Shown here one piece after another: positions 30,201 to 61,869 of a DNA stretch of 64,000 bases (position 1 is the stretch's first letter; every line of letters begins with the position of its first letter). The notes under the pieces were generated by a model, which was given only the letters and a program-made list of their open reading frames with translations, had not been told where the DNA came from and did no database searches. A program made the position numbers and the translations under genes. The stretch lies in assembly GCA_900107185.1 (NCBI GenBank), contig FNPA01000014.1, forward strand, positions 1-64,000, given 5' to 3'. This DNA comes from Ruminococcaceae bacterium YAD3003. GTDB taxonomy: Bacteria; Bacillota; Clostridia; Saccharofermentanales; Saccharofermentanaceae.

Positions 30201-30252
30201 ATTATTGCCTCCTGTAATATCAGGATATACTTGCTGATGAACTGAATATGGA

Positions 30253-30669
30253 TCATGGATGGACCTCGATAAGATCGGCACAACTGATGTTGAATACAGG
30301 ATTTAAAGAGAAAAGATAGTCTTCCATCGTTATCTGACCGTCAATGATCTCTTCAGGTGCTTTGTTCTTATCTTCCATTGCATCCAACCTGATACCGTAT
30401 TTGAATTCCAGTTCACTCTTTAATGTCCTGACCTGGCTCTTGAACCATCCCAGGTGCCTGTATTCGAGCCATTTGGGGAAACCGGTAGTGAACCACATCA
30501 ATACCGGCAGAGCGATATCTGTCTCTTCAGATAGTTTTTCCCGATATTCCAATTCCCTAATACAGTCGTTATATGAATCTATACGCATCAGAAGGTCATA
30601 AATATACTCCCTTTCTGAATAATCGCGGGTTCCGCGAAGGTAATCCGAAAACAACGTAAGGTATCTCAT
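30253..30669 (-). CDS. Unknown protein, first gene of the DnaB cluster
   Basis: 138 residues from ATG at 30669, chosen because GGGAG is 8 bases upstream; an ATG at 30675 would be too close. It is predicted to be mainly helical and rich in aromatic and acidic residues. No family was recognised. It is divergent from the WYL regulator gene, with a 125-bp gap between them. Confidence 0.6.
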   Translation of the reverse strand: MRYLTLFSDYLRGTRDYSEREYIYDLLMRIDSYNDCIRELEYREKLSEETDIALPVLMWFTTGFPKWLEYRHLGWFKSQVRTLKSELEFKYGIRLDAMEDKNKAPEEIIDGQITMEDYLFSLNPVFNISCADLIEVHP

Positions 30670-30794
30670 ATACATAACTCCCAATATGCAACATTCACAC
30701 AAAGTTTACCCGCACCCATGTACCAAATTCACACCATCTAAATAATTAATATGTACAATGAAGATATCCTTTACAGAAAGCGGAGAATGGAGCC

Positions 30795-31826
30795 ATGTCT
30801 ACCAGCAAAAAGAAAATGATCCCGTCCATGATCCTGGATATCTTAAAAAGACGAACAGATGAAAACCACACACTGGATCAGAAGGACATACTGGATGAAC
30901 TCAATAAATCGTTTGATCCACCGCTAGACCGCAAGACGGTTCGTCGCAACATCGAATACCTATTGGAGATCGGTTGTCCTATCGCATATACGGAAACTCC
31001 TCGCAGCAACGGAAACGATGTCTGGTCAGACTTCTATCTGGCAAGAGATTTCACAGAAGCCGAATTACGTTTACTGATAGATGGACTTCTGTTCTCAAAT
31101 CATGTCCCCTATAAACGATGCCAGGAACTTATTGAGAAGCTTGAAGGACTCTCGAGCGAGCACTTTAAGTCTTACGTAAAACACATTAAGACTCTTCCTG
31201 ATACTGAGGTTTATAACAAACAGCTCTTCTATACAATTCAGATATTGGACGAAGCCATCTCCAACGAGCGTCAGGTATCTTTCCATTATGTAAACTACGG
31301 AACTGACAAAAAGAATCACCCCAAGCTTGGAGAAGACGGTAATCCCAAAGATTACATAATCAACCCATATCAGATGGTTGCTAAAGATGGCAAATACTAT
31401 CTCATCTGCAACAATGATGATTACAACATCCTATCCAACTATCGTATTGACCGTATCGCGGACATTCGAATTCTTGAAGACAAAAAGAGAAAACCGTTCT
31501 CTAAGCTTAAAGATGCCAATGGCGATCGCTTCAATCTTGGCGAATATATGAAGACTCACATAAAAATGTACGCTTCCGGTGACTGTCATGTCAGATTTAA
31601 GATCACTCCGGTAATGGTTTCAGACATTATCGATGTTTTCGGGAAAGATGTCCGATTTGAAGAAGAGACAGACAAATATGTCATCGTCTCAACAAGAGTA
31701 ACAGAAAGCGCAATGATCCAGTTCGCCAAATCTTATTCTCCGGATGTTGTGATCCTGGAACCTCAAAGGCTCGTTGATGAGATGAAGGATTGGGCAAAGA
31801 AAGTTAAGAAAGCGTATGAAGGATAA
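30795..31826 (+). CDS. WYL-domain transcriptional regulator
   Basis: 343 residues. A winged helix-turn-helix (about 10-75, with DRKTVRRNIEYLLEIG as recognition helix) precedes a WYL ligand-binding domain (about 140-220, with INPYQMVAKDGKYYLIC and NYRIDRI) and a WCX C-terminal extension (about 245-340). WYL regulators often control bacterial defence genes and respond to nucleic-acid ligands. The next gene starts 4 bases after its stop. It is a paralogue of the N-terminal part of the WYL-LRR protein at 47466-49697. Confidence 0.92.
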   Translation: MSTSKKKMIPSMILDILKRRTDENHTLDQKDILDELNKSFDPPLDRKTVRRNIEYLLEIGCPIAYTETPRSNGNDVWSDFYLARDFTEAELRLLIDGLLFSNHVPYKRCQELIEKLEGLSSEHFKSYVKHIKTLPDTEVYNKQLFYTIQILDEAISNERQVSFHYVNYGTDKKNHPKLGEDGNPKDYIINPYQMVAKDGKYYLICNNDDYNILSNYRIDRIADIRILEDKKRKPFSKLKDANGDRFNLGEYMKTHIKMYASGDCHVRFKITPVMVSDIIDVFGKDVRFEEETDKYVIVSTRVTESAMIQFAKSYSPDVVILEPQRLVDEMKDWAKKVKKAYEG

Positions 31827-31830
31827 AGTC

Positions 31831-32487
31831 ATGGATAAAAGAATAAAGATAGCAAAGAGCTTCATTGATGATGAGTTTAAGACAAAGATTGAGTTAGTAA
31901 AGAATAAGAAAGTGAGTGAGATCATAGATTTAGTTATAAAAGAAAAGGCCTTTGATGGAGCTGCTATTGGCAGAAGGCGACAAAAAGAAACATTTGCAGA
32001 TCGCAAAGATGTAATGTGTCAAATAGTTGAAGAGCAACTAAAGGCACTTAACAGAATTGAAGATTTTGAGAAATGGCATAAAGAAACGGTGGAGGAACTA
32101 ATTAAGCATACAACTTTAGGTGTAGCTCAAAAGTTTATTAATCTGTCAGTAAAATATTTCTATTTTCTTGAGATTGGATACGATTTAGAGTGTTTTGAAA
32201 ATGTATCATTCAAGGACTTTGAGAACAGCTTTCATGTTCCAATAGATTCATATATTTTGAAGTGGTTTATCTTTAATTCAAACGCAGCTGATGGCTTTGA
32301 TGATTATGGAAACAAAATTGTTGCCTGGTCGAATCTATCAGACAAAGACACATATTATGATTTTCTTCAGCCAAAAATAAAGACAAAGATGAAAACCGTA
32401 AAACCTAAATTGCCAATACTTTGTATTGAAACGATTATCTGGTCAAATATAAAGGCGCTGAAAGATGCTATTGAATGGGATTTTTAA
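31831..32487 (+). CDS. Glycosylase-like (HhH-GPD-like) protein A, unknown function
   Basis: 218 residues from ATG at 31831, 4 bases after the WYL stop, with GAAGGA just upstream; an ATG at 31816 is a less likely start. AT-rich. The middle has GVAQKFINLSVKYF, then after an insertion HVPIDSYIL, then a late YYDFL and IIWSNIK. The pair K...PxD resembles the catalytic core GVGTK...VPVD of OGG1-type HhH-GPD DNA glycosylases. It is clearly related to the next gene. The function is inferred and unproven. Confidence 0.6.
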   Translation: MDKRIKIAKSFIDDEFKTKIELVKNKKVSEIIDLVIKEKAFDGAAIGRRRQKETFADRKDVMCQIVEEQLKALNRIEDFEKWHKETVEELIKHTTLGVAQKFINLSVKYFYFLEIGYDLECFENVSFKDFENSFHVPIDSYILKWFIFNSNAADGFDDYGNKIVAWSNLSDKDTYYDFLQPKIKTKMKTVKPKLPILCIETIIWSNIKALKDAIEWDF

Positions 32488-32516
32488 TATAAATCTTTGT
32501 GATTGGAGTAATAATT

Positions 32517-33164
32517 TTGAATTATGAAATCACGGATATAAATGTTACTGCAGCTACCATAAGATTTAGAAACAAATCAAATGAGGATGGCAGACCAAAG
32601 AAAGGTCCGTTTTTCAACGGGACTCAAGCATGGTCATTTGAAAAGAACGACATCGAACTATTTAAGAATGCCGTTTGGCAGGGCTACTTGGATGCCAGCA
32701 GAACTTTTCATGGAATAGAAGGAACAGACAAAAACCAAGGGGCCTTCCTTAAACTGGCGAAATCAATTCAAGCTTATTTCAATGATGATAAGCCTTTTGA
32801 TCATAATAGTTGGTGTAATTCGTTTATAGCAGATATTGAAAAATACAACCATTATAATGCACGATATGGCCAAGCTCAAAAGGTTGTTAATATGGCATTC
32901 AAATACCTGCTTTGCTGTGACAATATTGATGAACAAACCAGAGCTAAGTTTGATTCCTGCCACATACCGCTTGATCAGTATACTTTAGCCTGGTATTTCT
33001 TACAGGGAAGAAATTTGTTTTTGGAATGGAGTTATCTGAACCAAGAACAATATGAAACTATTTCAACCGACATCCGAACTATTCTTGGAAATGATACATT
33101 AAGATCTGAACTGCTTATATGGGAAGGAATGAAACCCAAAATCGTTAATTTAAAACGCAGATGA
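32517..33164 (+). CDS. Glycosylase-like (HhH-GPD-like) protein B, unknown function
   Basis: 215 residues from TTG at 32517, chosen because GGAG is 8 bases upstream; GTG at 32499 is an alternative. Homologous to the preceding protein: GQAQKVVNMAFKYLL, CHIPLDQYTLAWYFL, WSYLNQEQYETI and LLIWEGMK align with the same blocks there. A lysine and a PxD aspartate are kept. Probably made with its paralogue from the WYL-headed transcript. Confidence 0.6.
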   Translation: MNYEITDINVTAATIRFRNKSNEDGRPKKGPFFNGTQAWSFEKNDIELFKNAVWQGYLDASRTFHGIEGTDKNQGAFLKLAKSIQAYFNDDKPFDHNSWCNSFIADIEKYNHYNARYGQAQKVVNMAFKYLLCCDNIDEQTRAKFDSCHIPLDQYTLAWYFLQGRNLFLEWSYLNQEQYETISTDIRTILGNDTLRSELLIWEGMKPKIVNLKRR

Positions 33165-33251
33165 GCTACTTATCTCATGTTCCCTTTTTGCCCCATCCCA
33201 CCCTATAAAATGTCAGTGTAAATCTTATGACTTTTATGTGGAGGTAATTGT

Positions 33252-33701
33252 ATGTGCGAAAAAAGAATAATTAACGATTTTTCTGGTGATTATCGTTTCC
33301 TGTCCAACTTCTATCAGTGTCCTTTTGAGTATAAAGGTCTCACTTATCCTAATTCCGAAGCTGCATTCCAGGCTCAGAAGTGTGCCACTGAGGAAGATAA
33401 GATCAAGTACACCACCACGAAGAACCCTGTTGTCGCCAAGCGTATGGGTAAGAAGGAACCCGGGTTCCCAGCTAATTGGGATGAGATCTGCTATGGCATC
33501 ATGAAAGATATCCTTACTGCCAAATTCACTGTTCCCGAATTAAGAGAAAAGTTAAAGGCAACCGGTGACGCAACCCTGATTGAAGGAAATCACTGGCATG
33601 ATAACCGCTGGGGTAAATGTACCTGTGACAGATGTCAGAATAAGGATGGACAGAACTGGCTCGGTAAGATTCTTATGGAAGTAAGAGATTCTCTGAAATG
33701 A
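33252..33701 (+). CDS. NADAR-family N-glycosidase
   Basis: 149 residues with TGGAGG upstream. NADAR (YbiA-like) signature: FLSNFYQCPFEYKGLTYPNS and EAAFQAQK near the start, then the KDILTAKF and final LIEGNHWHDNRWGKC with WLGKILMEVR. Known NADAR proteins cleave N-glycosidic bonds of riboflavin intermediates or remove ADP-ribose from nucleobases, and many lie in defence islands with ADP-ribosyltransferases. No such transferase is seen here. It lies between two genes with glycosylase-like motifs. Confidence 0.9.
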   Translation: MCEKRIINDFSGDYRFLSNFYQCPFEYKGLTYPNSEAAFQAQKCATEEDKIKYTTTKNPVVAKRMGKKEPGFPANWDEICYGIMKDILTAKFTVPELREKLKATGDATLIEGNHWHDNRWGKCTCDRCQNKDGQNWLGKILMEVRDSLK

Positions 33702-33746
33702 TGGAACGTGCAAAGATAGCTAAGAATGCGTACTAAGGATAAAGAA

Positions 33747-34517
33747 ATGAAGGATAATAAAAGAACTGTTAAATTCATAGTTAATGATTCAGAGAGATGG
33801 AGCGATTTTAGCAATGATAGGCTTGCTGAATGTATCAAACTATGTGTTGATACTCGAAATAGTCCCACAGAAGAAAATATAGATAGGTTAAATGCGCTTC
33901 AGTTGATTAAACATACAGAATTGGATGAGAATAAAAAACGCAGATTCCGCATGGCAATTGGGACATACAAGCCAGGGGATGAACTTTTAAATGATGTATT
34001 TTCAGAGATCCGCAATGTCGAATATCCATCGTTAAGACAAGTTCAAGAAGCTGTTATCATTTTGAATTCTTTATATAACACAAATCTTCAAAACGTAATA
34101 ACTACTTCAAGAAATATAAAAAATCAAATTCCGAATTTATTAAGAAGGATTAATGAACGTGATCTTACTGTTATTGATGATATAACTAGGATCAACCAAC
34201 AAGGTGAAGATGCTCAATTCAGTAACAAGATATATTCATTTGCTACCAAGTTTTGCAGTTTCATTAATCCCTTTTATCCTATTTTTGACAGGTTTTCATC
34301 TAACCTTTTGTTTATGATCCTAAACAGAAATGACGAACAATTTCCTTTAGAGGATTTAGGAAATTATAGGATTTTCTGCGAAAAATATGAGGTCTTCCAA
34401 AACAAATACAGTTTAGATAACAACAAAAATACGGATACTTTCTTATGGATGTACGGAAAAATCCTTGCGGCCAGTGGAGATATAGTTTTTGAAACTGTCA
34501 GCCATATTAATCAATGA
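33747..34517 (+). CDS. Glycosylase-like protein C (K...PIFD motif), unknown function
   Basis: 256 residues from ATG at 33747, with AAGGA upstream. AT-rich. The N-terminal half is not recognised. The C-terminal half has SNKIYSFATKFCSF, then NPFYPIFDRFSSNLL and a final TDTFLWMYGKIL. The same order (K, P-I-x-D, LWxYG) recurs in the protein at 46721-47452 and, more loosely, in the two genes upstream. The last 11 bases overlap a convergent phosphatase-like gene. Confidence 0.6.
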   Translation: MKDNKRTVKFIVNDSERWSDFSNDRLAECIKLCVDTRNSPTEENIDRLNALQLIKHTELDENKKRRFRMAIGTYKPGDELLNDVFSEIRNVEYPSLRQVQEAVIILNSLYNTNLQNVITTSRNIKNQIPNLLRRINERDLTVIDDITRINQQGEDAQFSNKIYSFATKFCSFINPFYPIFDRFSSNLLFMILNRNDEQFPLEDLGNYRIFCEKYEVFQNKYSLDNNKNTDTFLWMYGKILAASGDIVFETVSHINQ

Positions 34518-35046
34518 TCTGCCATCGTTCATACTTACCGGTATTACTATTTTTCACAGATTCCAGATAACACTGTCTGTTAAGCTCAACCAGATGTTTT
34601 ACATACCAGTCTGGCGCAAACAGGCCAAACTCACGACATATCACCTGATAAACAAGCCTATTGGGTACATAGTATGGATTCTCCCAAACCACTTTATCAT
34701 CTCTGCCGGACATGCGAAGAACGGCAGCCGCTACAGCAGGAGATCTGGATCCGCCTTTTGAACAACAAATATAAAGATCTGTTACTTCATCAGGCAGTTG
34801 ACGAAGAAACTTTATGATAGCTCTTGCATGAGCGCCTTTGATTGCCAAGTAATATTCCGGATCTTCTACATCAGCAAAAGGCACAACACATCTTTGTTTA
34901 TCCGGAAACAGCTTCAGATTCTCATTATCTCTTTCGGTACATGCAATAATAGCGCACTTACTGACAGAAATATCAAAGATTTCAGCTTTAATAGCCGGAA
35001 TGGCAAGTATATGGATCGTATATTTCTTGATCTTATGTTGGCGCAT
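34507..35046 (-). CDS. Dual-specificity/tyrosine phosphatase-like protein
   Basis: 179 residues from ATG at 35046; a TTG at 35073 would contain the only upstream purine-rich site. The CX5R phosphatase loop is CSKGGSRS (C95 and R101), preceded by a DLYI strand, and an aspartate near 59-62 could be the general acid. The size fits small PTP/DSP-fold proteins that act on tyrosine phosphate, inositol phosphates or RNA ends. The substrate is unknown. Confidence 0.75.
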   Translation of the reverse strand: MRQHKIKKYTIHILAIPAIKAEIFDISVSKCAIIACTERDNENLKLFPDKQRCVVPFADVEDPEYYLAIKGAHARAIIKFLRQLPDEVTDLYICCSKGGSRSPAVAAAVLRMSGRDDKVVWENPYYVPNRLVYQVICREFGLFAPDWYVKHLVELNRQCYLESVKNSNTGKYERWQIID

Positions 35047-35091
35047 AGTTAAACCAACTACTTTCCTTCTCAAATAGCCTTTTTACCATAA

Positions 35092-36117
35092 TTATTCTTC
35101 CACATTAAATCCGGCCAATCTTAATCCTTCATTGGTAATTCCCAACGGGGCCGCTTTGGCAAGCATTTCTTCGGTCAGAATCTGGTGATAACCTGCAAGT
35201 ACAAGATCAAAACTGTTATGCCCAAACTTACCCTTAAGCCAATTGCTGACAGGAATAAGCAGACGATGCATGCCGGTTAATTCTTCACGATATAATTCGA
35301 CATCCATATAATTCCACCAGTTATCCGAGTATAGACCATCATCTACTGCATAACCCAGAAAACTCATATCAGAGGTATCACCACCATATACCAAGCGTTT
35401 CTTCACATACTCTTCGTGCTCATTCGGTGTTTCTTTCCAAACTTTAGGATCACGCTCCAACGGGTGATAACGATTCTTTAAGTAAACTATGTCACCGCAT
35501 TTGAAAGGCACAGGAAAATTGAACCAAAGCTCGTCAAAGAAACTGCTCAACAAAAACCAACATTCATTTTCCTCTCTGGAATAATCATGCGTACAAGACA
35601 ATATCTTTCCTGATCCGATCTCGCACTCAATGTCGCCATTATTCCTGGTCATCTCGCCTTCGTCAGGAAATCCACGCCTAATCTCTACAATACTGATATC
35701 TTCAGCATCTTCATTCTCCAGTATGTGTTTAATACAGTTATCCCAGCTTGAGAAAACACCTTCGTAAAAGTCCCCACCATATCCGTATCTTAATGATGTA
35801 TAGTAGCTTTTGTACGAATACAGCCAGCCACCTGAATTATCCTTGAACTCAGTAATAAACTGATCCTCCATAGCCATATAATCTGCAAGCAGTTTGTGGA
35901 TCTGTTCGCCACGGAAGGGACTCCACTTTCCGCAATTATTTATCTTAATATCCGGCATGTTATCAATGATCCACTGCCACGCCTCATGCTTCTCTTTCAG
36001 CGTTACACTCTGGCACTGCGAGACAAGCCATGCAGCCTCTAATGCATTGTACTCATATCCAATCTCCTTATGGTATTCACGAATATCTTTGGAATTAATA
36101 AAACTTGTAAAATCCAT
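35092..36117 (-). CDS. Unknown acidic protein related to the C-terminal part of the SLOG protein at 43087
   Basis: 341 residues with AGAGGG upstream. Rich in W, Y, D and E. No named family is recognised. It shares a block, FPVPFKCGDIVYLKNR, with LPTPYKPGDIV of the protein at 43087-44673, followed in both by an H-or-P-rich stretch and a variable end, suggesting a common domain. It is followed 4 genes later by related accessory genes on the same strand. Confidence 0.6.
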   Translation of the reverse strand: MDFTSFINSKDIREYHKEIGYEYNALEAAWLVSQCQSVTLKEKHEAWQWIIDNMPDIKINNCGKWSPFRGEQIHKLLADYMAMEDQFITEFKDNSGGWLYSYKSYYTSLRYGYGGDFYEGVFSSWDNCIKHILENEDAEDISIVEIRRGFPDEGEMTRNNGDIECEIGSGKILSCTHDYSREENECWFLLSSFFDELWFNFPVPFKCGDIVYLKNRYHPLERDPKVWKETPNEHEEYVKKRLVYGGDTSDMSFLGYAVDDGLYSDNWWNYMDVELYREELTGMHRLLIPVSNWLKGKFGHNSFDLVLAGYHQILTEEMLAKAAPLGITNEGLRLAGFNVEE

Positions 36118-36141: not shown

Positions 36142-37098
36142 TCATGCCATTCTTATTTCCTGATGATAAAGGTCAACCCACAGGGCAAAATCTACAGGGT
36201 TATCGTATATCCTATATCCTGCAACATCACCTTCAGAAGGTTCTTCTGTTTTACCATCTCTAAATTTCACGCTTACATCGCTGTTATTCATAGAGATCAT
36301 CTCCACCAGATACTCCACACCATTGGATTTGCGCGATGTGATCTTTGAGGGGTGAGAGAATCTAACGCTGTCTCTGCTGCAGGAACCTGAAAGCAATTCG
36401 GCACTGAAACAGATATTCTGAAGGTTCTGAGGATCCAATTCCCAATTATGGTTTGAGAAGAAATGTGTAAGATAATAACGGTATTCGTATTCATCCGAAA
36501 TAATTGAGTACTCGATACAAGTGGCGTCGCCGTAATTTTGAGTTTTATCTATTTCAAGAAGTATATCTATCATCCTGTCATAGACCTCAAATTCTGCAAT
36601 ATCAACTGGAACTGGTTCTTCGTTTTTGCGTCTGACCGTTCTTCCGGCAATTTTAGTAAGAGAAATCATGACGGTAGAAAAATCATCACTAAGATATTTT
36701 TTCCGTCCATTCTTTTTAAATTGTAGACAGTTACTGATCCACTTTTGGTTTATATCATTGAGGTCTTTTCCTTTCAAATCAATCTCAAGGACCATTCCTT
36801 CGGAAAGTTCATACAGTTCTGATATATCAGGAAAACTAATCTCATCTTCATTAATCAAGGGAAACTTTTTCCTGATTTTACTTATGCATTCGTTCTTATC
36901 AAACTGTTCCCTCGAATAAACACGATCGCCAATATAGATATATTTTTTTATCGGATCAAATTCTGAAGATATAAGTCTGATCAGACAAAATGATTTTGAA
37001 TCTTTAATTGTCCTTTCGGTCTTTATAACAGCATATTCACGCATTGACGTGATCTTGTGAAGCACCTGCTTTGTGGTTCTGTATACTTTAATCATCAT
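36142..37098 (-). CDS. Unknown protein
   Basis: 318 residues from ATG at 37098; ATG at 37110 is also possible, since this start overlaps the preceding gene. Predicted mixed alpha/beta. No motif is recognised; a central KKNGRKKYL basic patch and a C-terminal block ending in VDFALWVDLYHQEIRMA are notable. Probably co-transcribed with the hydrolase-like gene upstream. Confidence 0.6.
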   Translation of the reverse strand: MMIKVYRTTKQVLHKITSMREYAVIKTERTIKDSKSFCLIRLISSEFDPIKKYIYIGDRVYSREQFDKNECISKIRKKFPLINEDEISFPDISELYELSEGMVLEIDLKGKDLNDINQKWISNCLQFKKNGRKKYLSDDFSTVMISLTKIAGRTVRRKNEEPVPVDIAEFEVYDRMIDILLEIDKTQNYGDATCIEYSIISDEYEYRYYLTHFFSNHNWELDPQNLQNICFSAELLSGSCSRDSVRFSHPSKITSRKSNGVEYLVEMISMNNSDVSVKFRDGKTEEPSEGDVAGYRIYDNPVDFALWVDLYHQEIRMA

Positions 37099-37103
37099 AA
37101 CAA

Positions 37104-38411
37104 TCACCATCCCCATCCAAAGAAGTGATGCGCATCGTGATCTGTATCTTTCGCACCTTCGACGAACTTATCTACAGCGGCACTAAGCACTGCTTTCGCC
37201 TGAGAATCACTGCACCATCCATCGCTGCTATCGTAAAACCACTGTTCGTCCTTGTAATACAAATACAGCCATCGAGCTTCCAGATCAGGACTGTGCCACT
37301 TGATAGCAAGATTTCCATATTTTGTCTTTATGTCATCAATAACCACCGTACGGTAATAATCCTCAAACGGTCGTTCATCTCTACTGCTTCTTCCCATAGA
37401 ATGGAGCGAGCCAGATTCATCATCGAAATATAAATCCATTATGTAGCCGTTATAGATTAGATCCATTAATTCTTTGTCATCTTCAAACAGATCCACCGCT
37501 TGCGAATCTGACAAAAGCAAGACTTTTCCGCCGTGTCCGGTAACTTCATCGCAAGCTATCCATAATGATCGGCGGATTTCTTCGGTTAATACGATGCGTA
37601 CTATCTTATCAATAACCAAAAACTCCACATCCTGAAACTTAGCTCTAACATCAGTCTCCCCTACAGGCAGCGAATCAGCTGTGACATAAAAACAGTCCAT
37701 ACCATTGGCATCTTCAAGAGAATGTAGATATCTTTTAGATGTCTTTGTCAGAATGTCGAGATATTCCTCTTTGTATGTATACAGATACAAGAGTCGGTAT
37801 TCTTTTTTCATTTGAATCAACATTTTTAAATCTTCAAGCGACCGTTGTTCTTTAGCTTCTCTTTCAATATAGAGACTATCTCCGCTTGTTATCAAACCAC
37901 CTGTTAGTTCTCCGAACTTCAAAACGAAGTCCTCGCCTAATGGCCAGTGGCCGCCTTCAACATAAAAACTGTTGCCCCTGGTAAGATATTTATCCGTGGT
38001 GGCCGTATCGATCAGATCATCGTCTTTGCCAAGAATCAGATATACATTTTCGGTAGTCTCGCCACGCGTGTCCCAACAGATGTCTTTCTCTGTGATATTC
38101 TCAATAAGAGACTTATATTCGTAATCAGGATAAAGGTCTGTCCAATATCTTGATGCGGGATACATGGGATTAATCAGTATTGTTTTCGTGCCTGTCGCTC
38201 TGCCGATAATAAGAGCAAACAAACCGCCGAATCCATGACCTACAATCAGGTCAAACTTGCTATTCATCATTCTGATAAGGAATTCCCCAGGATGCTCCTT
38301 CGGATCAGATCCATGCGAATATATGCAGTCTTCTGAGTAGTATTTCAATAGTTCTTTATAATATAGATTCTCCGATTCGTCATTAATGTCACAAAGATTA
38401 AGGATATTCAT
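37104..38411 (-). CDS. Alpha/beta-hydrolase-like protein without nucleophile, fused to an unknown domain
   Basis: 435 residues. The N-terminal about 170 residues follow the YqiA/RsbQ-like alpha/beta hydrolase layout: LIVGHGFGGLFAL at the nucleophile elbow, NPMYPAS, an acid loop LILGKDDDLID and a histidine in GGHWP. The elbow has glycine (G60) where serine is expected (GHSFGG), so it is probably catalytically dead or uses another residue. The C-terminal 250 residues are unrecognised and end in a histidine/tryptophan-rich tail. Confidence 0.65.
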   Translation of the reverse strand: MNILNLCDINDESENLYYKELLKYYSEDCIYSHGSDPKEHPGEFLIRMMNSKFDLIVGHGFGGLFALIIGRATGTKTILINPMYPASRYWTDLYPDYEYKSLIENITEKDICWDTRGETTENVYLILGKDDDLIDTATTDKYLTRGNSFYVEGGHWPLGEDFVLKFGELTGGLITSGDSLYIEREAKEQRSLEDLKMLIQMKKEYRLLYLYTYKEEYLDILTKTSKRYLHSLEDANGMDCFYVTADSLPVGETDVRAKFQDVEFLVIDKIVRIVLTEEIRRSLWIACDEVTGHGGKVLLLSDSQAVDLFEDDKELMDLIYNGYIMDLYFDDESGSLHSMGRSSRDERPFEDYYRTVVIDDIKTKYGNLAIKWHSPDLEARWLYLYYKDEQWFYDSSDGWCSDSQAKAVLSAAVDKFVEGAKDTDHDAHHFFGWGW

Positions 38412-38442: not shown

Positions 38443-38769
38443 TCATCTATCCAAATAGCACTTATAATGTTCGCTGTAATCGTATCTGATAATTGGTTCT
38501 TCAGTCAGACCAAAAGCATTTCTGATCTGCAAAATATAGTCCCTCCCAATATTCGGATTCAGATATATGATGGGTGTTCCATCTTTTTTATATTCAACTC
38601 TTCCACGCGGATAGTAATCAAATGGTTTTTTGCTTCCGGCAGGTCTTAAATAAGCCCACAAAAGTTTGTGATTGTAATTATCTCCAGATTTGGAAACACC
38701 ATATATATCTCCTTCCTCATACTGATATACCTTCAATTCACCTTCAACTATCCAGAAAACACCTCTCAT
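38443..38769 (-). CDS. Small unknown protein
   Basis: 108 residues with AAGAGG upstream. Predicted beta-rich, with a basic patch PRGRVEYKKDG. It lies 8 bases after the SLOG-family gene and 32 bases before the hydrolase-like gene on the same strand, so it is part of the same run of genes. No family recognised. Confidence 0.65.
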   Translation of the reverse strand: MRGVFWIVEGELKVYQYEEGDIYGVSKSGDNYNHKLLWAYLRPAGSKKPFDYYPRGRVEYKKDGTPIIYLNPNIGRDYILQIRNAFGLTEEPIIRYDYSEHYKCYLDR

Positions 38770-38777
38770 AAAACCTC

Positions 38778-39260
38778 TTATTTCTTGATCGTGATTACCT
38801 CAAGACCTTTCTCTTTTGCATACCAGATAGTTCTTTTTGTTCCGCCGGGTGCTCCGGTATATACACCGATGAGCCTCGATGAATGATCGACCATCCAGTA
38901 ATCCCTGTCGAGAAATGACTGTCTTCCTGGTGTCTTGCCTACATATACGATTTTGTCTGAACCCATAAGGAGCTTTGCATATCTCTTCTTCCACTCAGGA
39001 TCCCATTCTTTTTCCATGCCGTTCCATGCACTGGCAGAAATGAGATGTATATTCCTGTTTTCCTTCCTGAGCTTTATAACTATCTCTGCAGCCCAGATAT
39101 CCACACCTCTTTGCATACCTGTGATGAAATCCGTATAGCCGTCATCAACAGCTTTTCTGATCTGTTCTTCGAGCCAAGCAATTACCTTTTCCTCGCTCAT
39201 TTCAAGTCTTTCAGGTCTGTGTCCCGTAAAGGAACAAGCATGCTTTATATCAATCTCCAT
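38778..39260 (-). CDS. SLOG-family (DUF1273/YpsA-like) protein
   Basis: 160 residues. ACSFTGHRPERL at the start, then DFITGMQRGVDIWAAEIV and KIVYVG, are the signature of the DUF1273 branch of the SLOG superfamily of Rossmann-like nucleotide-binding proteins. Many SLOG proteins sense nucleotide-derived ligands in stress and defence systems. This one has no fused effector. It heads a run of leftward genes. Confidence 0.85.
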   Translation of the reverse strand: MEIDIKHACSFTGHRPERLEMSEEKVIAWLEEQIRKAVDDGYTDFITGMQRGVDIWAAEIVIKLRKENRNIHLISASAWNGMEKEWDPEWKKRYAKLLMGSDKIVYVGKTPGRQSFLDRDYWMVDHSSRLIGVYTGAPGGTKRTIWYAKEKGLEVITIKK

Positions 39261-39358: not shown

Positions 39359-41404
39359 TCATACGGCAAAGCCGAATCTCCGCACATTCCCGTCATACGG
39401 TGAGATGTTGGGCGCGACGATATCTTCCGGAGCAAGCATTCTGATGTCATCATCAGTAACGTCACAGACATTCATGTTCGCGAGCCTGTTGCACTGCTCC
39501 ATATGGGCGTTCTCAATCAGATTTCTTACATATCTTCCGTTACCGAAATCATCGTTCTTTCTCGCGCTGTCAAAAATCCCAGTGAGCTTTGCCCTCGCTT
39601 CAGGTGCGAGATACAATCCGTCATCTTTTGCGATAAGCTCGGCAATCCTGCAAAGATCAGTTGTCGCGTAATCAGGGAAATGAACGTGGAATGCAATCCT
39701 CGAGCGAAGGCCGGGGTTTTTCTGCATGAACTTCTCCATCTTGTCCGGGTATCCCGCGAAGATTACGACCATGTTGTCCCTGTTATTTTCCATCTCCTGG
39801 ACAATGGTGCTTATCGCTTCATCTCCGTACATACCGTCCCTGTCGTCAACAAGCGAATATGCTTCATCAATAAAGAGCACGCTGCCTTCCGCTTCTTTGA
39901 ACCTCTTCTTGACGAGCGGCGCCGTGTGTCCGACATATTGTCCTACAAGGTCAGCTCTACCGACCTCATAAAGATCGCCTTTCGAAAGCAGACCATTGTC
40001 CTTCATTATCTGTGCGAAAAGCCTCGCGACTGTCGTTTTCGCTGTTCCGGGATTTCCGGTGAACACCATGTGCATCGCAGGTCTTTTCGAGGTCATGCCC
40101 CTGTCCTTGTAAAGCTTCTGCATCTTATAGTAGTTGAGTGCCTTCTCGATTGTTTGCTTTGCCTCAGAAAGTCCGATGAGACTGTTCAGCTTATCGATAG
40201 CTCTGCCTTTGGGTTCTTCTTTCCTCACCTGATCCGCGACAGCGGCAGTATCCTTATACTGTGGATATATGTTCGTCTTGAGCTTTTCCCCATACCAGGC
40301 ATCAAAAATCTTATTGAGATTCGCTGCCGTGTATCCTTTTCCTTCATCGCTCACCATTCCGGTAAGTTTTTTGTCGGGCCGGATCTTTTTCTCCGAAGCA
40401 AGCTTCTTAAGATAATCTCTTGCCGAATCAGCGAAAACGATATCCTCCTTCAGCTCAACCATGGAGATACTTCCACGGCTTGCGAATTCATCGATAAATG
40501 CATTTTTTGCCTCAGAGTTATCTGCATTCAGAAGTATTACCGTCAGGACATCGTTCCTGTGCTCAAGAGCCATCCTGCAGATCGCGCTAATGTTTTCCAT
40601 TCCCGAAGACTCTGCAAACATGCCGACTCTGCCTGTACCGCCATGCCAGTCAATAACGATCGTTCCACCGGCACATGACTTATACAAAGCCTCCCATCCT
40701 ATAGAAGGCAAAGGGCTGCTATCCCCCCAGTCGATAAGGACATATCTTCTGCTCTTAACCCTTTTGTTCTGATAAAGAGCAGAGATGAGACGGGAATAAA
40801 TCTGCTTCTTTTTATCGTCATCATCGTCCCTGACATTTACCATATAGTGTACGGGATGACCATCTGCACGTGACTTCGCTTTACCTTTATAAATCCTTTC
40901 GATCTCGGGAATGAGCGTATCGCCGACAAGGTCATTTTTGGCACCTTCAATAAGTGCTTCCTTCTCCGAAACTTCATCGGCCATAACCTCGTCGTAAGCC
41001 ATATGGCAACATCTTCCGAGGCACTCGATTTCAAAGTGCTCCAGGACAGCATCACAGTCATCGATATAACCATTATTATCAGCTTGGCTCAGGTAAGAAA
41101 AAATATTGTGAAATGAAGCTTCCTCTATTTCGGTCTTTCCCAGTTCAAGGCGGGTCATGCCGGCATACTTGCCGATCAGATTCCCGATATTCATTCCGGG
41201 CTTTACGGTTATTACACCCAGATGAGCGACTTCACCATAAGTGATCCGGCTGAGAAAAACATAGCTTTCCTCTTTGAGCTTAAATAACTCCTCACTGGCT
41301 TCACTGATCACATTTTCAAAAGCCCGGCAGCATTTTATGTCATGCTCATCCGGAACTAATTTATCAAAGTTCTTCAGTACGGCATGAATCCTGTAAAAGT
41401 ACAT
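39359..41404 (-). CDS. AAA+ ATPase of the CbbX/SpoVK family with degenerate first domain
   Basis: 681 residues from ATG at 41404, 8 bases after TGGAGG. An unknown N-terminal region (about 1-190) is followed by a degenerate AAA-like domain without Walker A (about 205-345), and a complete CbbX/SpoVK AAA+ module (about 395-670) with Walker A GNPGTAKTT, Walker B VLFIDEAY, and GYPDKMEKFMQKNPGLRSR near the arginine finger. Such proteins remodel partner complexes. The partner is unknown; the gene stands alone. Confidence 0.88.
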   Translation of the reverse strand: MYFYRIHAVLKNFDKLVPDEHDIKCCRAFENVISEASEELFKLKEESYVFLSRITYGEVAHLGVITVKPGMNIGNLIGKYAGMTRLELGKTEIEEASFHNIFSYLSQADNNGYIDDCDAVLEHFEIECLGRCCHMAYDEVMADEVSEKEALIEGAKNDLVGDTLIPEIERIYKGKAKSRADGHPVHYMVNVRDDDDDKKKQIYSRLISALYQNKRVKSRRYVLIDWGDSSPLPSIGWEALYKSCAGGTIVIDWHGGTGRVGMFAESSGMENISAICRMALEHRNDVLTVILLNADNSEAKNAFIDEFASRGSISMVELKEDIVFADSARDYLKKLASEKKIRPDKKLTGMVSDEGKGYTAANLNKIFDAWYGEKLKTNIYPQYKDTAAVADQVRKEEPKGRAIDKLNSLIGLSEAKQTIEKALNYYKMQKLYKDRGMTSKRPAMHMVFTGNPGTAKTTVARLFAQIMKDNGLLSKGDLYEVGRADLVGQYVGHTAPLVKKRFKEAEGSVLFIDEAYSLVDDRDGMYGDEAISTIVQEMENNRDNMVVIFAGYPDKMEKFMQKNPGLRSRIAFHVHFPDYATTDLCRIAELIAKDDGLYLAPEARAKLTGIFDSARKNDDFGNGRYVRNLIENAHMEQCNRLANMNVCDVTDDDIRMLAPEDIVAPNISPYDGNVRRFGFAV

Positions 41405-41541
41405 ATAATCAACCTCCATATCACTTCTTATGCTTCGAGTATAAACAGTAACATGTGCTAAAAATGTCTCATGTATAAAACAAAAGCGATGCGGCAGATC
41501 AGTCCGTTTATTTCCATGCTGTCTATGTGAAAGTATTCCTG

Positions 41542-42987: not shown

Positions 42988-43094
42988 TTTGCAAGCTCCT
43001 TGAATGCTTCATCAAATTCATCCATCAGTTTTTCAGCTGCGGCAAGGAGTTCGCCGTCACTTATAATTTCATGCTGCTTAATATCTTCATTCAT
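42984..43094 (-). CDS. Putative 36-residue antitoxin of Doc
   Basis: The protein MNEDIKQHEIISDGELLAAA plus 16 further residues is acidic and helical, starts after GGGAG, and overlaps both neighbours (8 bases with the upstream gene, 4 bases with doc). It has no DNA-binding N-terminus as in Phd, and could be just the Doc-binding helix. Position and overlap, not homology, support the call. Confidence 0.6.
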   Translation of the reverse strand: MNEDIKQHEIISDGELLAAAEKLMDEFDEAFKELAK

Positions 43095-44673
43095 GATTAA
43101 CTTTCTCCCACGCTTTCAAAACTTCCTCAGCACTCAAGCCGTCAAACGATTCATGGTGAAAAACATCCCAGAAGGCCCTGGCCTTATCTTCATCGCCATT
43201 AAGTTCTTTGCTTATTTTTACCAAAAGGTCATCGCTGTCCCTAAGTTCGTCTTCACTGACAGATCTGATCCTGTACAAAGGCGACAAAGGCGGTTCATAA
43301 CTGTGCAGTTCAGCTTCCTTATAGAACCTCTTGTGCTTCAACGCCTCCAGTCTCCATTCATCCGTGTAGGGCATCTTGAAAAGGATCTGCGGCATGCAGC
43401 AATCGTACTGGGCGTGAGCCTCTGTTACCATGGCATGGAACGAAGGACCAAAAGGATAGCAATCGATATTAACTATGTCTCCGGGCTTATACGGAGTAGG
43501 CAGATTCAGGTCAAGAAATCCGCCAAAGAAATTCCTGTCACTTTCAAGTGCAGAATAATACTCGTAACCGTTCTTCTCCTTCTTCAGATTTAATTTCTCA
43601 AACCAGCAGACTTCGCCGTTGTAAATATAGTAGTCGTATCTGAAGGTTTCCCATGCTCCGTTATCACGAAGATTCCATACTTCCAATTTGTACCACGTTG
43701 CGATCGGATAGCCTTCTTCGGGCTCTTCGTCATCATCGTCAGCAAAAATCTCTTTATCAAATTCTTCTTCGCGCCTAATGTATTCCATAACATCTTTCAT
43801 TGACTTGAACACACCTAAAGGTTGAGACTTCACGAAATAAATTTGCGGATCATACCACTCATTGAAAAGACAATATATTCGTTCTTCTTCATAAAGATCG
43901 TTGTATTTTAGATCAAACTCAGCATTTCGTATTGCTGCACAGCAGTCATCAAAACAGATTCCGAAATCCCCTATCACATCACAAATCGTTTGCTTAATAT
44001 GTTCAAAGTCAGCACTTTCAGACATCAGCTTCGATACATTGGTAAATGAATCATACTTTATGCTGTTTTTCTTGCGAAGGCTTACAAGCATATCTATCTT
44101 AGACTTCAAAGATACAGGAGCTTTGCATATGATCTCCGCTATATATGATTCACTGAAAGTGCCATCTGCAGTATTAAAAGCAATCATCTCCTCGCTAAAA
44201 CCACACTTTCGTAAGACATCCCTTTCATCTTCATTTGTCCATCCGTGGCATTCAATGACATAAGGTTTGAGGTCATCAATCTTTTCTATCTCAACACAAG
44301 TTCCTAAAGGAATGTGATACAGTCTGCACTTCTTATTCAGGGCCAAAAGAAGAAGCATGTTAATGAAGACCTCTTCGCTCTCTCCGTCCCAAACTGCGAT
44401 CATGCGGTCGCAGTCTTTCAGCATCTTTACATTCGTTGACAATGCGTATTTGATGCGCGCCATAGGATAGCGATGTTTTGGCGGAACATACCGAATAACA
44501 CTGACCTTCTCATATTGCTTGTTTTTGCAGCGTCCGTATACACGGTGATCGAAATCAGAATCACCAAGCAGTATCTCGTCGCCATTACTCATGAGAGTCC
44601 CGACGTCTTCCCAGAATGCCTTGGGGAATTCCCTGTAATGTATTCCGTTTGTTCCGCAGATATATGTGATCAT
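43087..44673 (-). CDS. SLOG-like domain fused to an unknown C-terminal domain
   Basis: 528 residues from ATG at 44673, with AAAGGAG upstream. The first about 130 residues resemble a SLOG nucleotide-sensing fold (EILLGDSDFDHRVYG, then DCDRMIAVWDGES and CRLYHIP). The C-terminal part shares the block LPTPYKPGDIV with the protein at 35092. The end ...FHHESFDGLSAEEVLKAWEK is helical. A sensor-effector arrangement is possible but unproven. It starts 14 bases after the phosphoesterase gene and overlaps the small antitoxin. Confidence 0.65.
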   Translation of the reverse strand: MITYICGTNGIHYREFPKAFWEDVGTLMSNGDEILLGDSDFDHRVYGRCKNKQYEKVSVIRYVPPKHRYPMARIKYALSTNVKMLKDCDRMIAVWDGESEEVFINMLLLLALNKKCRLYHIPLGTCVEIEKIDDLKPYVIECHGWTNEDERDVLRKCGFSEEMIAFNTADGTFSESYIAEIICKAPVSLKSKIDMLVSLRKKNSIKYDSFTNVSKLMSESADFEHIKQTICDVIGDFGICFDDCCAAIRNAEFDLKYNDLYEEERIYCLFNEWYDPQIYFVKSQPLGVFKSMKDVMEYIRREEEFDKEIFADDDDEEPEEGYPIATWYKLEVWNLRDNGAWETFRYDYYIYNGEVCWFEKLNLKKEKNGYEYYSALESDRNFFGGFLDLNLPTPYKPGDIVNIDCYPFGPSFHAMVTEAHAQYDCCMPQILFKMPYTDEWRLEALKHKRFYKEAELHSYEPPLSPLYRIRSVSEDELRDSDDLLVKISKELNGDEDKARAFWDVFHHESFDGLSAEEVLKAWEKVNHE

Positions 44674-44686
44674 CAGTCTGTCTCCT

Positions 44687-45427
44687 TTATTTAATTTCCT
44701 TGATCCTGCTGAACAAAAGCGAAAACTTCTCCCAATCAAGATCTCTGTGATAATGCCCGAAATACCAGTGTTTGAATTTCAATCCGTGCTCAGTAATCAG
44801 CGAATCAAGAAATTCAGTCAGCTTGTTGCCGGATCTGTCGACAACAGCGGCCATGTTATTGGCCGGAAGTCTGGAAATATCGCTGCTATAGACAGCGCTT
44901 ATATTCTTACCGATATAGCCTTCAGGAGCGCAATGAGTCAGTACGATATCGACTTCGAAATTAACATTTGCAAGGTTCTTCAATGCTTCCTCATATTCTT
45001 CATCAGACGGCATCTCACGTGCCCACCAGGATGCACCTTCCTTGCGGTATTCCTTATCAGTGGATTCGGCTCCGCCCATGGTAAAGAATGTAGTCCCGAA
45101 AATGTTATAGACCTGACCTCTCATTAGATGAATGACACGATCGGATATCTTATGAACCTTTCCACCGTTCCACTCTTCTACAGGATACTTGTCCAATAGA
45201 TCATGATTCTCGTGATTGCCGTCAATGAACAGTGTAGTAAATGATCTTTGGTTATATACTTTGAGCACGTATCTGTCCTGTTCAGCACCATCCCAGATTC
45301 CTCCGAAATCACCAACAATAATCAGGAAATCATAATGGTCCGACATGTATTTCTGTTCCGGGAAATTAGTAGTATTTAACTTCTCCCAGTCTGTTGTTCC
45401 ATGAGTGTCACCGGTTATGTAAAACAT
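44687..45427 (-). CDS. Metallophosphoesterase
   Basis: 246 residues from ATG at 45427, 12 bases after AGGAGG. All calcineurin-like motifs are present: GDTHG, VGDFGG, GNHEN, LTHCAP and GHYHRD. The long insertion between GNHEN and LTHC fits phage- and island-encoded phosphoesterases of unknown substrate. It heads the transcript with the SLOG-fusion, antitoxin and Doc genes. Confidence 0.9.
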   Translation of the reverse strand: MFYITGDTHGTTDWEKLNTTNFPEQKYMSDHYDFLIIVGDFGGIWDGAEQDRYVLKVYNQRSFTTLFIDGNHENHDLLDKYPVEEWNGGKVHKISDRVIHLMRGQVYNIFGTTFFTMGGAESTDKEYRKEGASWWAREMPSDEEYEEALKNLANVNFEVDIVLTHCAPEGYIGKNISAVYSSDISRLPANNMAAVVDRSGNKLTEFLDSLITEHGLKFKHWYFGHYHRDLDWEKFSLLFSRIKEIK

Positions 45428-60345: not shown

Positions 60346-61869
60346 ATGGTTTATCTTTCAAAATCCAAGTATTGCGGTTTATGGCAATGCCCTAAAATAG
60401 CATGGTTAAGACAATATAAACCCGAAGCGGCAACCATTGACGAGATGGTACAGGCTCGTTTTGATGCCGGCAATGTGGTTGGCGACCTCGCTATGGAATT
60501 ATTCGGAGATTTCGTTGAAGTTACTACTTATAACGGTGAAAAGCTTGATCTCCCCAAAATGATTGAAAAGACCACTATAGAGATGGAGAAGGGTACAGAG
60601 AATATCTGCGAAGCCTCTTTTTCATATAACGGCCTTTACTGTGCAGTTGATATTCTCAAGAAGGACGGCGACGGTTGGGCTATCTATGAGGTCAAGAGTT
60701 CCACTAAACACATGAAGGATGACGGCACTTATACAGATGACAAAGAAGTCTACGTTGCCGACATATCCTATCAGAAATATGTTCTTGAACATTGTGGTGT
60801 CAAAGTAACCGGTACTTATCTCGTATGCCTTAACGGTGATTATGTATTTGACGGAACGCTCGATCTGTCTCAGTTGTTCTTTATTTCCGATGTTTCAGAT
60901 GAAGTCCCTAATGAGATAGCAAAGATCGAACCTAACCTTGCTATAGCCGAGAGAGTCCTTACTTCAGATGAGGAACCTGATATCGATCTGGACATATACT
61001 GCAAAAAGCCTTATGACTGTGCATTCTGGAAATACTGCTCCCAGCATATACCTGAACAATCAGTTTTTAAGCTCTACCGCCTCCCCGCAAAGAAGAAGTT
61101 CGAGTATTACCACAACGGCTGGATCACATACAGAGACCTTATCGACAACGCCCCCATAACTAATGAGAAGCAGCTCAGGCAGATAGAATTTGCACTCGAA
61201 GACAAAGGAACTTATGTAAACAAGACAGAGATTGCTGTATTCATGCAGTCGCTTTCTTATCCCTTATACTTTCTGGATTTTGAAACCATGCAACCAGTTA
61301 TCCCTGAATATGTTGGAACAAAACCTTATGCACAAATTCCGTTCCAGTATTCTCTGCATTATATTGAGCATGAAGATGGAGAACTTAAGCACAAGGAATT
61401 CCTTGCAGAATCCGGCACAGACCCAAGAAGAGCCCTCGCTGAACGCTTATGCGAAGATATTCCTATGAATGTCTGCGTAACGGCATATAACAAGGCGTTT
61501 GAATGTACAAGAATCAAGGAACTTGCCGAAACATATCCTGATCTGGCAGAACATCTTACAAACATCAGGAATAACATTGTTGACCTTCTAGTACCATTCC
61601 AATCCGGCTGGTACTACAACAAGGCTATGGGTGGCTCTTTCTCCATTAAGAGCGTACTTCCCGCTATTTACCCTGATGATCCGAGCTTGAACTATCACAA
61701 CCTGGAAGGCGTTCACAATGGCGGAGAAGCCATGACTATCTTCCCTAAGATTAAGGATATGTCGCCAGAAGAAAAACAGATTGCTAGACGCAATCTGCTT
61801 AAATACTGTGAACTAGATACCTATGCGATGGTTAAGGTTTGGCAGGAACTAGTAAGGGTGGCTCAATAA
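60346..61869 (+). CDS. DUF2779 protein: Cas4-like nuclease plus DEDD exonuclease-like domain
   Basis: 507 residues with AGGAGG upstream. The N-terminal domain has Cas4-like features: C10 and C15 near the start, PD-(D/E)xK residues D102 and E116-V-K118 (YEVKSST), and C219, C225, C231 for an iron-sulphur cluster. The C-terminal domain (about 300-505) has LDFETM (D311, E313), AYNKAFE and a late CELDTYAM, as in DEDD 3'-5' exonucleases. This is the architecture of DUF2779. It should process DNA ends; the biological role is not established. Confidence 0.88.
   Translation: MVYLSKSKYCGLWQCPKIAWLRQYKPEAATIDEMVQARFDAGNVVGDLAMELFGDFVEVTTYNGEKLDLPKMIEKTTIEMEKGTENICEASFSYNGLYCAVDILKKDGDGWAIYEVKSSTKHMKDDGTYTDDKEVYVADISYQKYVLEHCGVKVTGTYLVCLNGDYVFDGTLDLSQLFFISDVSDEVPNEIAKIEPNLAIAERVLTSDEEPDIDLDIYCKKPYDCAFWKYCSQHIPEQSVFKLYRLPAKKKFEYYHNGWITYRDLIDNAPITNEKQLRQIEFALEDKGTYVNKTEIAVFMQSLSYPLYFLDFETMQPVIPEYVGTKPYAQIPFQYSLHYIEHEDGELKHKEFLAESGTDPRRALAERLCEDIPMNVCVTAYNKAFECTRIKELAETYPDLAEHLTNIRNNIVDLLVPFQSGWYYNKAMGGSFSIKSVLPAIYPDDPSLNYHNLEGVHNGGEAMTIFPKIKDMSPEEKQIARRNLLKYCELDTYAMVKVWQELVRVAQ

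Follow-up and report, generated by a model that had tools for sequence, protein, structure and literature searches.

A WYL-headed operon of candidate HhH-GPD-like base glycosylases in a Ruminococcaceae bacterium

What might a bacterial operon do in which a transcriptional regulator and a NADAR protein accompany genes that match no named family? We addressed this question for a locus of Ruminococcaceae bacterium YAD3003, which lies within an 81-kb contig of a 2.67-Mb genome, using a 64,000-nucleotide stretch of that contig (the window). Here, a WYL/WCX regulator gene (P1) is followed by the genes P2 and P3, a NADAR gene and the gene P5 (Table 1). A preliminary description, made from the letters of the window, had listed a WYL gene, two related genes, a NADAR gene and a third related gene in this order, and had read the three unnamed proteins as OGG1-type HhH-GPD DNA glycosylases of a candidate defence system. 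The gene calls, together with Pfam and TIGR matches, bear out this order, as well as the claimed spacing, with P2 starting 4 bases 3′ of the end of the WYL gene. Whether a single transcript spans the operon is uncertain because the 87-base gap between P3 and the NADAR gene holds a promoter-like site. The guanine plus cytosine content is 0.364–0.373 over 31–35 kb, compared with 0.415–0.431 just to the left and 0.384–0.403 just to the right.

None of P2, P3 and P5 matched a family of Pfam, NCBIfam, PADLOC or PHROGs at an E value better than 0.01. The best match, of P5 to JetB in PADLOC (E 0.011), was set aside as weak, as were the other family matches above 0.01. Purifying selection acts on P3 and P5, whose ratios of non-synonymous to synonymous substitution (dN/dS) are 0.11–0.21 against relatives in L015, L016 and L020; in this analysis, synonymous sites were saturated for NADAR and for WYL compared with L017, and the WYL row against L018 was left out for its incorrect start. 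We propose, with a confidence just short of even, that P2, P3 and P5 are diverged OGG2/AGOG-type HhH-GPD base glycosylases that have been recruited by a WYL-controlled conflict operon. Their catalysis, substrate, control by the WYL protein and antiphage effect are what we infer, and the defence setting is read from the gene neighbourhood.

P3 is predicted to have an HhH-GPD fold

The AlphaFold model of P3, built from 76 sequences, had a mean predicted local distance difference test score (pLDDT) of 94.1 and a predicted template modelling score of 0.92. When VIA-align re-ranked 999 of the top chains from Foldseek, rows 1–18 for P3 were all HhH-GPD DNA glycosylases, and the first unrelated row had a Z score of 4.8. 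Thus, the ranking of the predicted fold supports the helix-hairpin-helix core that the preliminary description had led us to look for. The best match was the OGG2 structure 3knt (Z 9.8, root-mean-square deviation 4.0, 159 aligned), followed by 3n0u (8.8) and 3fhf (8.7). The AGOG structures 1xqp and 7OLB scored 8.0 and 7.2, and next came more AGOGs, CacOGG1, MutY, MagIII and hOGG1. For P3 and P5, Pfam gave no uracil-DNA-glycosylase match and the VIA rows on display included no such enzyme, an absence that does not exclude that fold.

The fold of P2 was assigned by homology to P3 only. The P3 orthologues of L015 and L016 match P2 at E values of 9e-6 and 1e-7, and P2 itself matches 40 loci at E ≤ 1e-5, in agreement with the earlier claim that these two genes are homologous. 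The direct comparison between P3 and P2 is weak (E 0.03; 22% identity), and the profile-based value is circular, P2 being among the profile members.

A conserved pocket resembles that of AGOG and OGG2

AGOG is an archaeal 8-oxoguanine DNA glycosylase (PF09171; 1XQP and 7OLB) with a catalytic pair formed by K140 and D172 in the Pae enzyme and by K142 and D174 in the Pab enzyme. Pab-AGOG holds 8-oxoguanine between F146 and W212, and bonds it through Q24, W62, K149, P172, D174 and D208 (PMC9638937). Pae-AGOG uses D218 and W222, and MjaOGG2 uses D194 and W198 (PMC3397491). By sequence offset, the counterparts in P3 are K122, M126 (K+4), K129 (K+7), P151 (D−2), D153, E198 and W202 (E+4), and the Lys–Asp, Asp–acid and acid–Trp spacings are 31/45/4 in P3 versus 32/46/4 in Pae-AGOG. 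P3 therefore shares with AGOG the predicted fold, the Lys–Asp spacing, the Lys at K+7, the Pro at D−2 and a C-terminal acidic-x3-Trp motif. It differs from AGOG in having no sequence match to it, in carrying Met instead of Phe at K+4 and in the sensor Gln, which has no placed counterpart; moreover, P3 is bacterial, sometimes multi-copy and located in conflict-type loci. OGG2 (Ogg-HhH, PF22175; 3KNT, 3N0U and 3FHG) is the top structural match of both P3 and P5, and the acid/Trp pair corresponds to Asp194/Trp198 of MjaOGG2; the differences are that Pfam gave no match and that the Lys is mostly Asn in the P5 family. The Lys–Asp loop is presumably longer in P3 than in MjaOGG2.

The preliminary description had taken OGG1 as its template, from the GVAQK...VPID and GQAQK...IPLD motifs of the first two proteins. 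Both motifs are present and rank with the best-conserved columns of the 105-member family. The likeness to the OGG1 motif holds for the Lys and the Asp, each of which is kept in 104 of 105 members, but not for their spacing, which is 31 in P3 and 38 in P2 versus 19 in OGG1. AGOG and OGG2 fit better, with a Lys–Asp spacing of 32 in AGOG and 3knt as the best structural match.

Among the 105 distinct P3 homologues, K122, K129 and D153 are each kept in 104, M126 in 101 and P151 in 94, with Glu or Asp at position 198 in 101 and Trp or Phe at position 202 in 98. The combination of K122, K129, D153, the acid and the aromatic residue is found in 98 homologues, and in 88 when P151 is included. The pattern used to gather 73 of the homologues includes Lys122, Asn125, Met126 and Lys129; in the 32 gathered without it, the five positions are jointly kept in 29 (K122 in 31, N125 in 32, M126 in 29, K129 in 31, P151 in 30, D153 in 31, the acid at 198 in 31 and W202 in 29). 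The median Lys–Asp spacing across the family is 31 (24–42). P2 carries K, L, K, P, D, E and W at the pocket positions of P3, and relatives of P3 span several phyla, going by record titles. Read from the offsets to AGOG, the pocket of P2 and P3 would suit a guanine-derived base. In L065 (5938–7137), a P3-family protein is fused to DUF6884 (Pfam 8e-8).

P5 represents a second family

The P5 model, built from 21 sequences, had a pLDDT of 73 (72.7), and blocks across residues 91–240 scored 78–95 except for residues 161–170 at 61. All of VIA rows 1–22 were HhH-GPD proteins, including 3knt (Z 7.5, root-mean-square deviation 3.8, 158 aligned), 3n0u (7.5) and 3fhg (7.3), and the first unrelated row scored 4.4. 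By sequence, P5 is not linked to P2 and P3 (profile–profile probability 0.7%), so the claim that the third gene is a relative of the first two survives by predicted fold only. F172, K175, D188, D237 and W241 of P5 are invariant in 21 of 21 aligned rows, D188 also in 15 of 15 rows of another alignment, and by offset they correspond to F146, K149, D174, D208 and W212 of Pab-AGOG (PMC9638937). In one P5 relative (L137), the search pattern did not pick up an Asp. From these alignments, the P5 family appears to be mostly without the nucleophile and to have kept the pocket.

P3 genes recur in conflict-type neighbourhoods

To place the operon, we compared 78 genome loci with a called P3 gene (L080, in which none was called, was left out). 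Removal of the same-genus loci L022, L023, L034 and L058 and of L083, L084, L089, L042 and L048, which are near copies by layout, left 69 non-redundant loci. Partners were labelled with profiles built from the neighbours themselves and were counted within 5 kb. WYL genes were found in 28 of the 78 loci (25 of the 69), DUF2779 genes with a Cas4-like nuclease in 14 (13), relatives of the window gene at 43087 in 11 (11), AAA+ genes in 9 (9), ADP-ribosylglycohydrolase genes in 4 (4), KptA in 2 (2), P5 in 2 (1) and NADAR in 1 (0). More than one P3 copy (two to four) is present in 10 of 78 and 9 of 69 loci. L044, L024, L049 and L031 have three to four P3-family genes per locus, with a P5 relative among those of L031.

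As class backgrounds, we counted 70 WYL and 58 ADP-ribosylglycohydrolase genes in 60 genomes, and found DUF2779 in 15 of 291 genomes. By our own arithmetic for a genome of about 2.4 Mb, chance would place a WYL gene within 5 kb of about 0.5% of loci, an ADP-ribosylglycohydrolase gene within 5 kb of 0.4% and DUF2779 within 5 kb of under 0.1%. The association of P3 with WYL genes that had been expected from the window is thus seen elsewhere, in 25 of 69 loci versus about 0.5% expected. Pfam, run on 117 of 202 listed operon neighbours, matched DUF2779 in 8, ADP_ribosyl_GH in 4, AAA in 4, KptA in 2, ResIII in 2 and HSDR_N in 2 (among the best 25 of 107 families), and restriction, Cas4, AbiEii and candidate-system models were among the PADLOC matches listed (best 25 of 269). 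The ADP-ribosylglycohydrolase labels of L072 and L170 come from the local profile only.

A P5 relative lies beside DUF2779 in L117/L161, and the same-genus P5 locus L170 holds a WYL gene together with the profile-labelled ADP-ribosylglycohydrolase. On viral contigs, a GmrSD-type restriction gene with DUF4268 lies directly upstream of a P5 relative in L128 (3005–6540), and P5 relatives lie downstream of serine recombinases in L139 and L141.

Cargo varies at one site

Within the family, 6 of 115 genomes have relatives of P3 and 4 have relatives of P5; across the class, the numbers are 12 and 11 of 391. The YAD3003 genome is included in each count. In same-genus genomes, the flanks (28059–30702 and 34507–38769) are partly conserved and the cargo between them changes. 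P3 lies beside P5 without WYL, P2 or NADAR in G082 (L015), and G009 (L020) has WYL and P5. In G067 (L017), WYL is accompanied by a 150-residue gene and a P3 relative, and G069 (L018) has WYL and a P3 relative, with a NADAR that is 85% identical about 2.4 kb off. Relatives of the phosphatase-like gene that is convergent with P5 (Table 1) flank the site in L015, L017 and L020. Because the cargo changes at this site, P2, P3 and P5 seem to act as modules behind one regulator, with NADAR as an option. In L017, a DUF7663 gene (7679–8440; Pfam 4e-31) directly follows the P3 relative.

Viral contigs held 21 P5 and 5 P3 loci when alignments were used as queries, and none with the single P3 query or the first P5 alignment. 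No P5 relative was found in plasmids, and two distant relatives of P3 were found there.

The close linkage to a regulator, the variable genes behind one WYL gene and the polar, near-invariant pocket could also be explained if these proteins were abortive or toxin-like effectors that strip bases from the host's own nucleic acid and are restrained by the WYL regulator. We regard this as very unlikely, as no antitoxin-like partner recurs among the clustered neighbours and P2 and P3 are simply in tandem.

NADAR is an optional member

The preliminary description had counted NADAR as a core member of the system. This did not hold up: NADAR lies within 5 kb of P3 in none of the 69 non-redundant loci, as judged with a narrow two-sequence profile that may miss distant NADARs, and P3 and P5 are adjacent in L015 with no NADAR between them. 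L081 has a weaker NADAR relative on the opposite strand, which the 5-kb count does not include. NADAR is therefore an optional extra. The window NADAR has the same fold as the antiphage NADAR protein DS32_2 (NF053876; E 2.9e-12), but its score of 46.1 bits against a cut-off of 240 marks it as a different protein.

NADARs reverse guanine ADP-ribosylation (PMC11125620 and PMC11833690), and the operon could accordingly belong to a conflict system that clears host nucleic acid of ADP-ribose adducts, which enzymes of phages or rivals would have attached to guanine or RNA. The glycosylase-fold proteins would then remove adducted bases or ADP-ribose itself, and NADAR would be one of several hydrolases. 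In keeping with this idea are the NADAR of the window, the presence near P3 of ADP-ribosylglycohydrolase (4 of 69 loci) and of KptA (2), the ADP-ribosylglycohydrolase (by profile only) of the same-genus P5 locus L170 and the SLOG gene at 38778. Section 3.8 of PMC9503650 predicts ADP-ribosylglycohydrolase and phosphatase systems under the control of WYL or Nudix regulators, which occur in over 42% of its ADP-ribosylglycohydrolase systems, with NADAR and a nuclease as variable parts. The operon shares with these systems the WYL regulator, an accessory NADAR, nucleases, phosphatases and variable modules. It differs from them in that they are built on ADP-ribosylglycohydrolase, of which the YAD3003 genome has none (PF03747, E ≤ 0.001), and in that the main text of PMC9503650 names no glycosylase-fold proteins and has no word beginning with glycosylase, HhH or OGG. 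As NADAR is also optional, and the profile applied detected no ADP-ribosylglycohydrolase within 5 kb at 65 of the 69 P3 loci, we consider a system directed against ADP-ribosylation to be unlikely.

A promoter-like motif clusters in the window

A 21-base promoter-like motif lies upstream of the WYL gene and again in the gap between P3 and NADAR (Table 1). L017, L018 and L020 have looser copies close to where their WYL genes start, which depart from the first consensus at 4, 2 and 5 positions; the copy in L018 sits inside an open reading frame (ORF) that was called too long. At up to two mismatches, the whole genome has 13 matches, of which 7 are in the window (28035, 30718, 33177, 42569, 45481, 50460 and 60268, all between ORFs of at least 90 residues), compared with 0 for the backwards control; most window sites were among those from which the pattern was drawn, and this clustering is therefore partly built in. 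At up to three mismatches, the window has 10 matches versus 2.33 expected, and none of 100 shuffles reached 10. It is a fair guess that these sites mark a local regulon to which the WYL gene itself, the NADAR/P5 part and the DUF2779 region all belong, and the WYL protein may be what binds the motif.

Other features of the window

Several further window genes recur across P3 and P5 loci (Table 1), and the window therefore seems to hold scattered parts of a larger recurrent neighbourhood. In a three-gene block at 53718–59242, one gene (54655) has an NPPYQ methyltransferase-type motif, recognised by eye, and another (55730) encodes a 1,170-residue ResIII protein (Pfam 9e-11); all three genes have relatives near P3 in L040. 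The region has a second WYL regulator at 47466–49697, a WYL/WCX protein of 743 residues that weakly matches leucine-rich repeats. A Doc/Fic death-on-curing-like protein (42607–42987, by eye) has a close relative between WYL and P5 in L170, and both genes of a RelE/DinJ-type toxin–antitoxin-like pair (23410–24032, by eye) have relatives in L097. Eighteen tRNA genes form one block on the minus strand (51165–53042).

Table 1 Operon genes, motif copies and recurrent neighbours in the window
Feature	Position	Strand	Evidence and remarks
Promoter-like 21-base motif ATGYACYAWWWTNNNCMCATC upstream of WYL gene	30718..30738	+	1 mismatch
P1, WYL/WCX transcriptional regulator	30795..31826	+	Pfam WYL 2.3e-13, WCX 1.8e-6; relatives in P3 loci and in one P5 locus elsewhere
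P2, diverged P3-family member; pocket residues K, L, K, P, D, E, W	31831..32487	+	Homology to P3 family
P3, predicted HhH-GPD (AGOG/OGG2-like) base glycosylase; K122, K129, P151, D153, E198, W202	32517..33164	+	TTG start; model and conservation
Second copy of promoter-like motif, P3–NADAR gap	33177..33197	+	2 mismatches
NADAR protein, optional accessory	33252..33701	+	Pfam PF08719 2.9e-26, 93.1 bits over 35.1; TIGR02464 83.9 bits over cut-off 73.7
P5, predicted HhH-GPD-like, second unnamed family; F172, K175, D188, D237, W241	33726..34517 (start may be 33747)	+	Model and alignment
Gene convergent with P5, CSKGGSR phosphatase-type loop (named by eye)	34507..35073	-	DSPc E 0.074, under cut-off
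Unnamed gene	36142..37116	-	Relatives in 5 P3/P5 loci outside the same-genus P3 hits
UPF0227-like hydrolase gene	37104..38411	-	Relatives in 5 P3/P5 loci outside the same-genus P3 hits
Unnamed small gene	38443..38769	-	Relatives in 8 P3/P5 loci outside the same-genus P3 hits
YpsA-type SLOG protein	38778..39260	-	Pfam 2.9e-20; relatives in 3 P3/P5 loci outside the same-genus P3 hits
AAA+ ATPase with AAA_lid_6	39359..41419	-	Relatives in 8 P3/P5 loci outside the same-genus P3 hits
Unnamed gene (43087-type)	43087..44739	-	Relatives in 11 P3/P5 loci outside the same-genus P3 hits
DUF2779/Cas4-like nuclease gene	60346..61869	+	Relatives in 16 P3 or P5 loci; motif copy at 60268-60288

Discussion

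Several observations weigh against reading P2, P3 and P5 as glycosylases of a conflict operon. VIA Z scores under about 13 can, as the tool itself warns, reflect an arrangement common to helical proteins, and Foldseek alone gave no match at E ≤ 0.001 against PDB for P3 or P5, or against a viral structure library for P3. There was no Pfam match to HhH-GPD or AGOG: PF09171 was without a match at E ≤ 10 for P2, P3 and P5, it was not among the 7 Pfam families matched at 0.01 by 99 P3-family members, and the OGG2 family PF22175 was not matched either. The P3 and P5 profiles reached profile–profile probabilities of 0.3–0.4% against five endonuclease III (EndoIII) sequences, and a PDB sequence search with these profiles returned nothing meaningful. 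The mapping of AGOG residues was made post hoc from papers, by sequence offsets rather than coordinates. The Asp-to-acid spacing of 45 is specific to the window P3, as the family median is 52 (22–103), and it is 34 in Pab-AGOG. The 8-oxoguanine sensor Gln of AGOG has no placeable counterpart, with no majority-Gln column before P3 residue 121 in the aligned sequences. In the P5 family, the position of the catalytic Lys is Lys in 4 of 33 distinct homologues and Asn in 20. Furthermore, the loci are related and their counts are not independent, and not all P3 loci come from this class. None of 15 independently found DUF2779 loci (1.5-kb flanks) carries P3 or P5, on which ground a dependence of DUF2779 on P3 was rejected. 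Among the 11 P5 genome loci, DUF2779 lies within 5 kb in one (L161) and WYL in one, and labelled partners are found in none of the 21 viral P5 loci. Lastly, Streptococcus P3 genes lie directly behind uvrC and before a calcineurin-type phosphoesterase (L082 by Pfam; L084 and L089 by layout), which is possibly a repair setting.

A chance helical arrangement is less likely because the unbroken run of HhH-GPD proteins was obtained with two independent models, those of P3 and P5, and is joined by the pocket residues. The weak Foldseek scores, and the lack of the Lys in 29 of 33 P5 relatives, would fit non-enzymatic DNA- or nucleotide-binding proteins that retain the HhH-GPD fold only. This is highly improbable in our view, as relatives of P3, which come from several phyla going by record titles, almost always keep the Asp, both Lys residues and the acidic/Trp pair. 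For P5, the NK...PIFD motif had been likened to OGG1 on account of its Lys–Asp distance; the distance stands (20, from Lys168 to Asp188), but the Lys is rare in the family and the model averages 61 over this stretch. Taken as a whole, the preliminary picture of a WYL conflict operon of HhH-GPD-like proteins is in line with the predicted folds and the comparative genomics, but without the OGG1 template, the core role of NADAR and the Lys of P5.

The AGOG/OGG2-like pocket and the uvrC neighbour in Streptococcus could also point to an ordinary repair role in anaerobes, with base excision directed at oxidised or alkylated guanine. This explanation is distinctly unlikely: presence is patchy (12 of 391 class genomes), 9 of 69 loci have two or more diverged copies, P2 and P3 are only 22% identical, the neighbours are of conflict type and the cargo varies at one site among same-genus genomes.

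Under the conflict-operon reading that we favour, the WYL protein would hold down expression of the genes until its ligand becomes available through infection or nucleic-acid damage. The target would be a guanine-derived base in foreign or modified nucleic acid. P2 and P3 would flip this base into the AGOG-shaped pocket, with Lys129 and Glu198 at the Watson–Crick edge of the guanine-type base and Trp202 stacking on it; Lys122 would then attack the sugar, assisted by Asp153, to leave an abasic site or a strand break. P5 may act likewise, or as a mostly Lys-less, monofunctional version. Neighbourhood nucleases (DUF2779/Cas4-like) may finish the damaged DNA, and NADAR here, or ADP-ribosylglycohydrolase at some other loci, may strip ADP-ribose as an optional partner.

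Base excision is already known as antiphage immunity from Brig1 and Brig3, DNA glycosylases of the uracil-DNA-glycosylase superfamily. The Brig3 partner BapA first strips glucose, and a predicted ADP-ribosylglycohydrolase gene lies near both Brig1 and Brig3 and was judged unnecessary for Brig3 (PMC11078745 and PMC13160076). The idea of base excision is common to these systems and to P2, P3 and P5, which differ in being predicted HhH-GPD proteins and in being known from genes and models. A more specific possibility, which we rate as somewhat unlikely, is a guanine-centred base-excision immune module, in which AGOG-like copies have diversified according to the guanine-derived base and NADAR or ADP-ribosylglycohydrolase first strips ADP-ribose or sugar, like BapA for Brig3; 7-deazaguanine or the sugar-bearing guanine of phage DNA would be example targets of such a module. 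DefensePredictor covers NADAR-domain proteins, and a figure legend lists uracil DNA glycosylase and aGPT-Pplase among its predicted systems (PMC13092281). Searches of open-licence papers on DNA glycosylases, WYL, NADAR or DUF2779 in defence listed none that describes the present operon in its title, opening of the abstract or matching passages. The alpha-glutamyl/putrescinyl-thymidine pyrophosphorylase family (PF18746) is, we presume, linked to the glycosylase fold; if so, DefensePredictor already counts a relative with the glycosylase fold among its defence candidates.

If the favoured reading is true, HhH-GPD would be a second DNA-repair superfamily turned to immunity, beside the uracil-DNA-glycosylase type. 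It would open a new branch of base-cutting immunity, give the AGOG-type pocket a bacterial home and hint at why enzymes that remove ADP-ribose adjoin antiphage glycosylases. The predicted OGG2/AGOG-like fold and pocket of these two unnamed families, of which one reaches several phyla going by record titles and often lies close to WYL genes, would give testable guesses, namely guanine-derived substrates.

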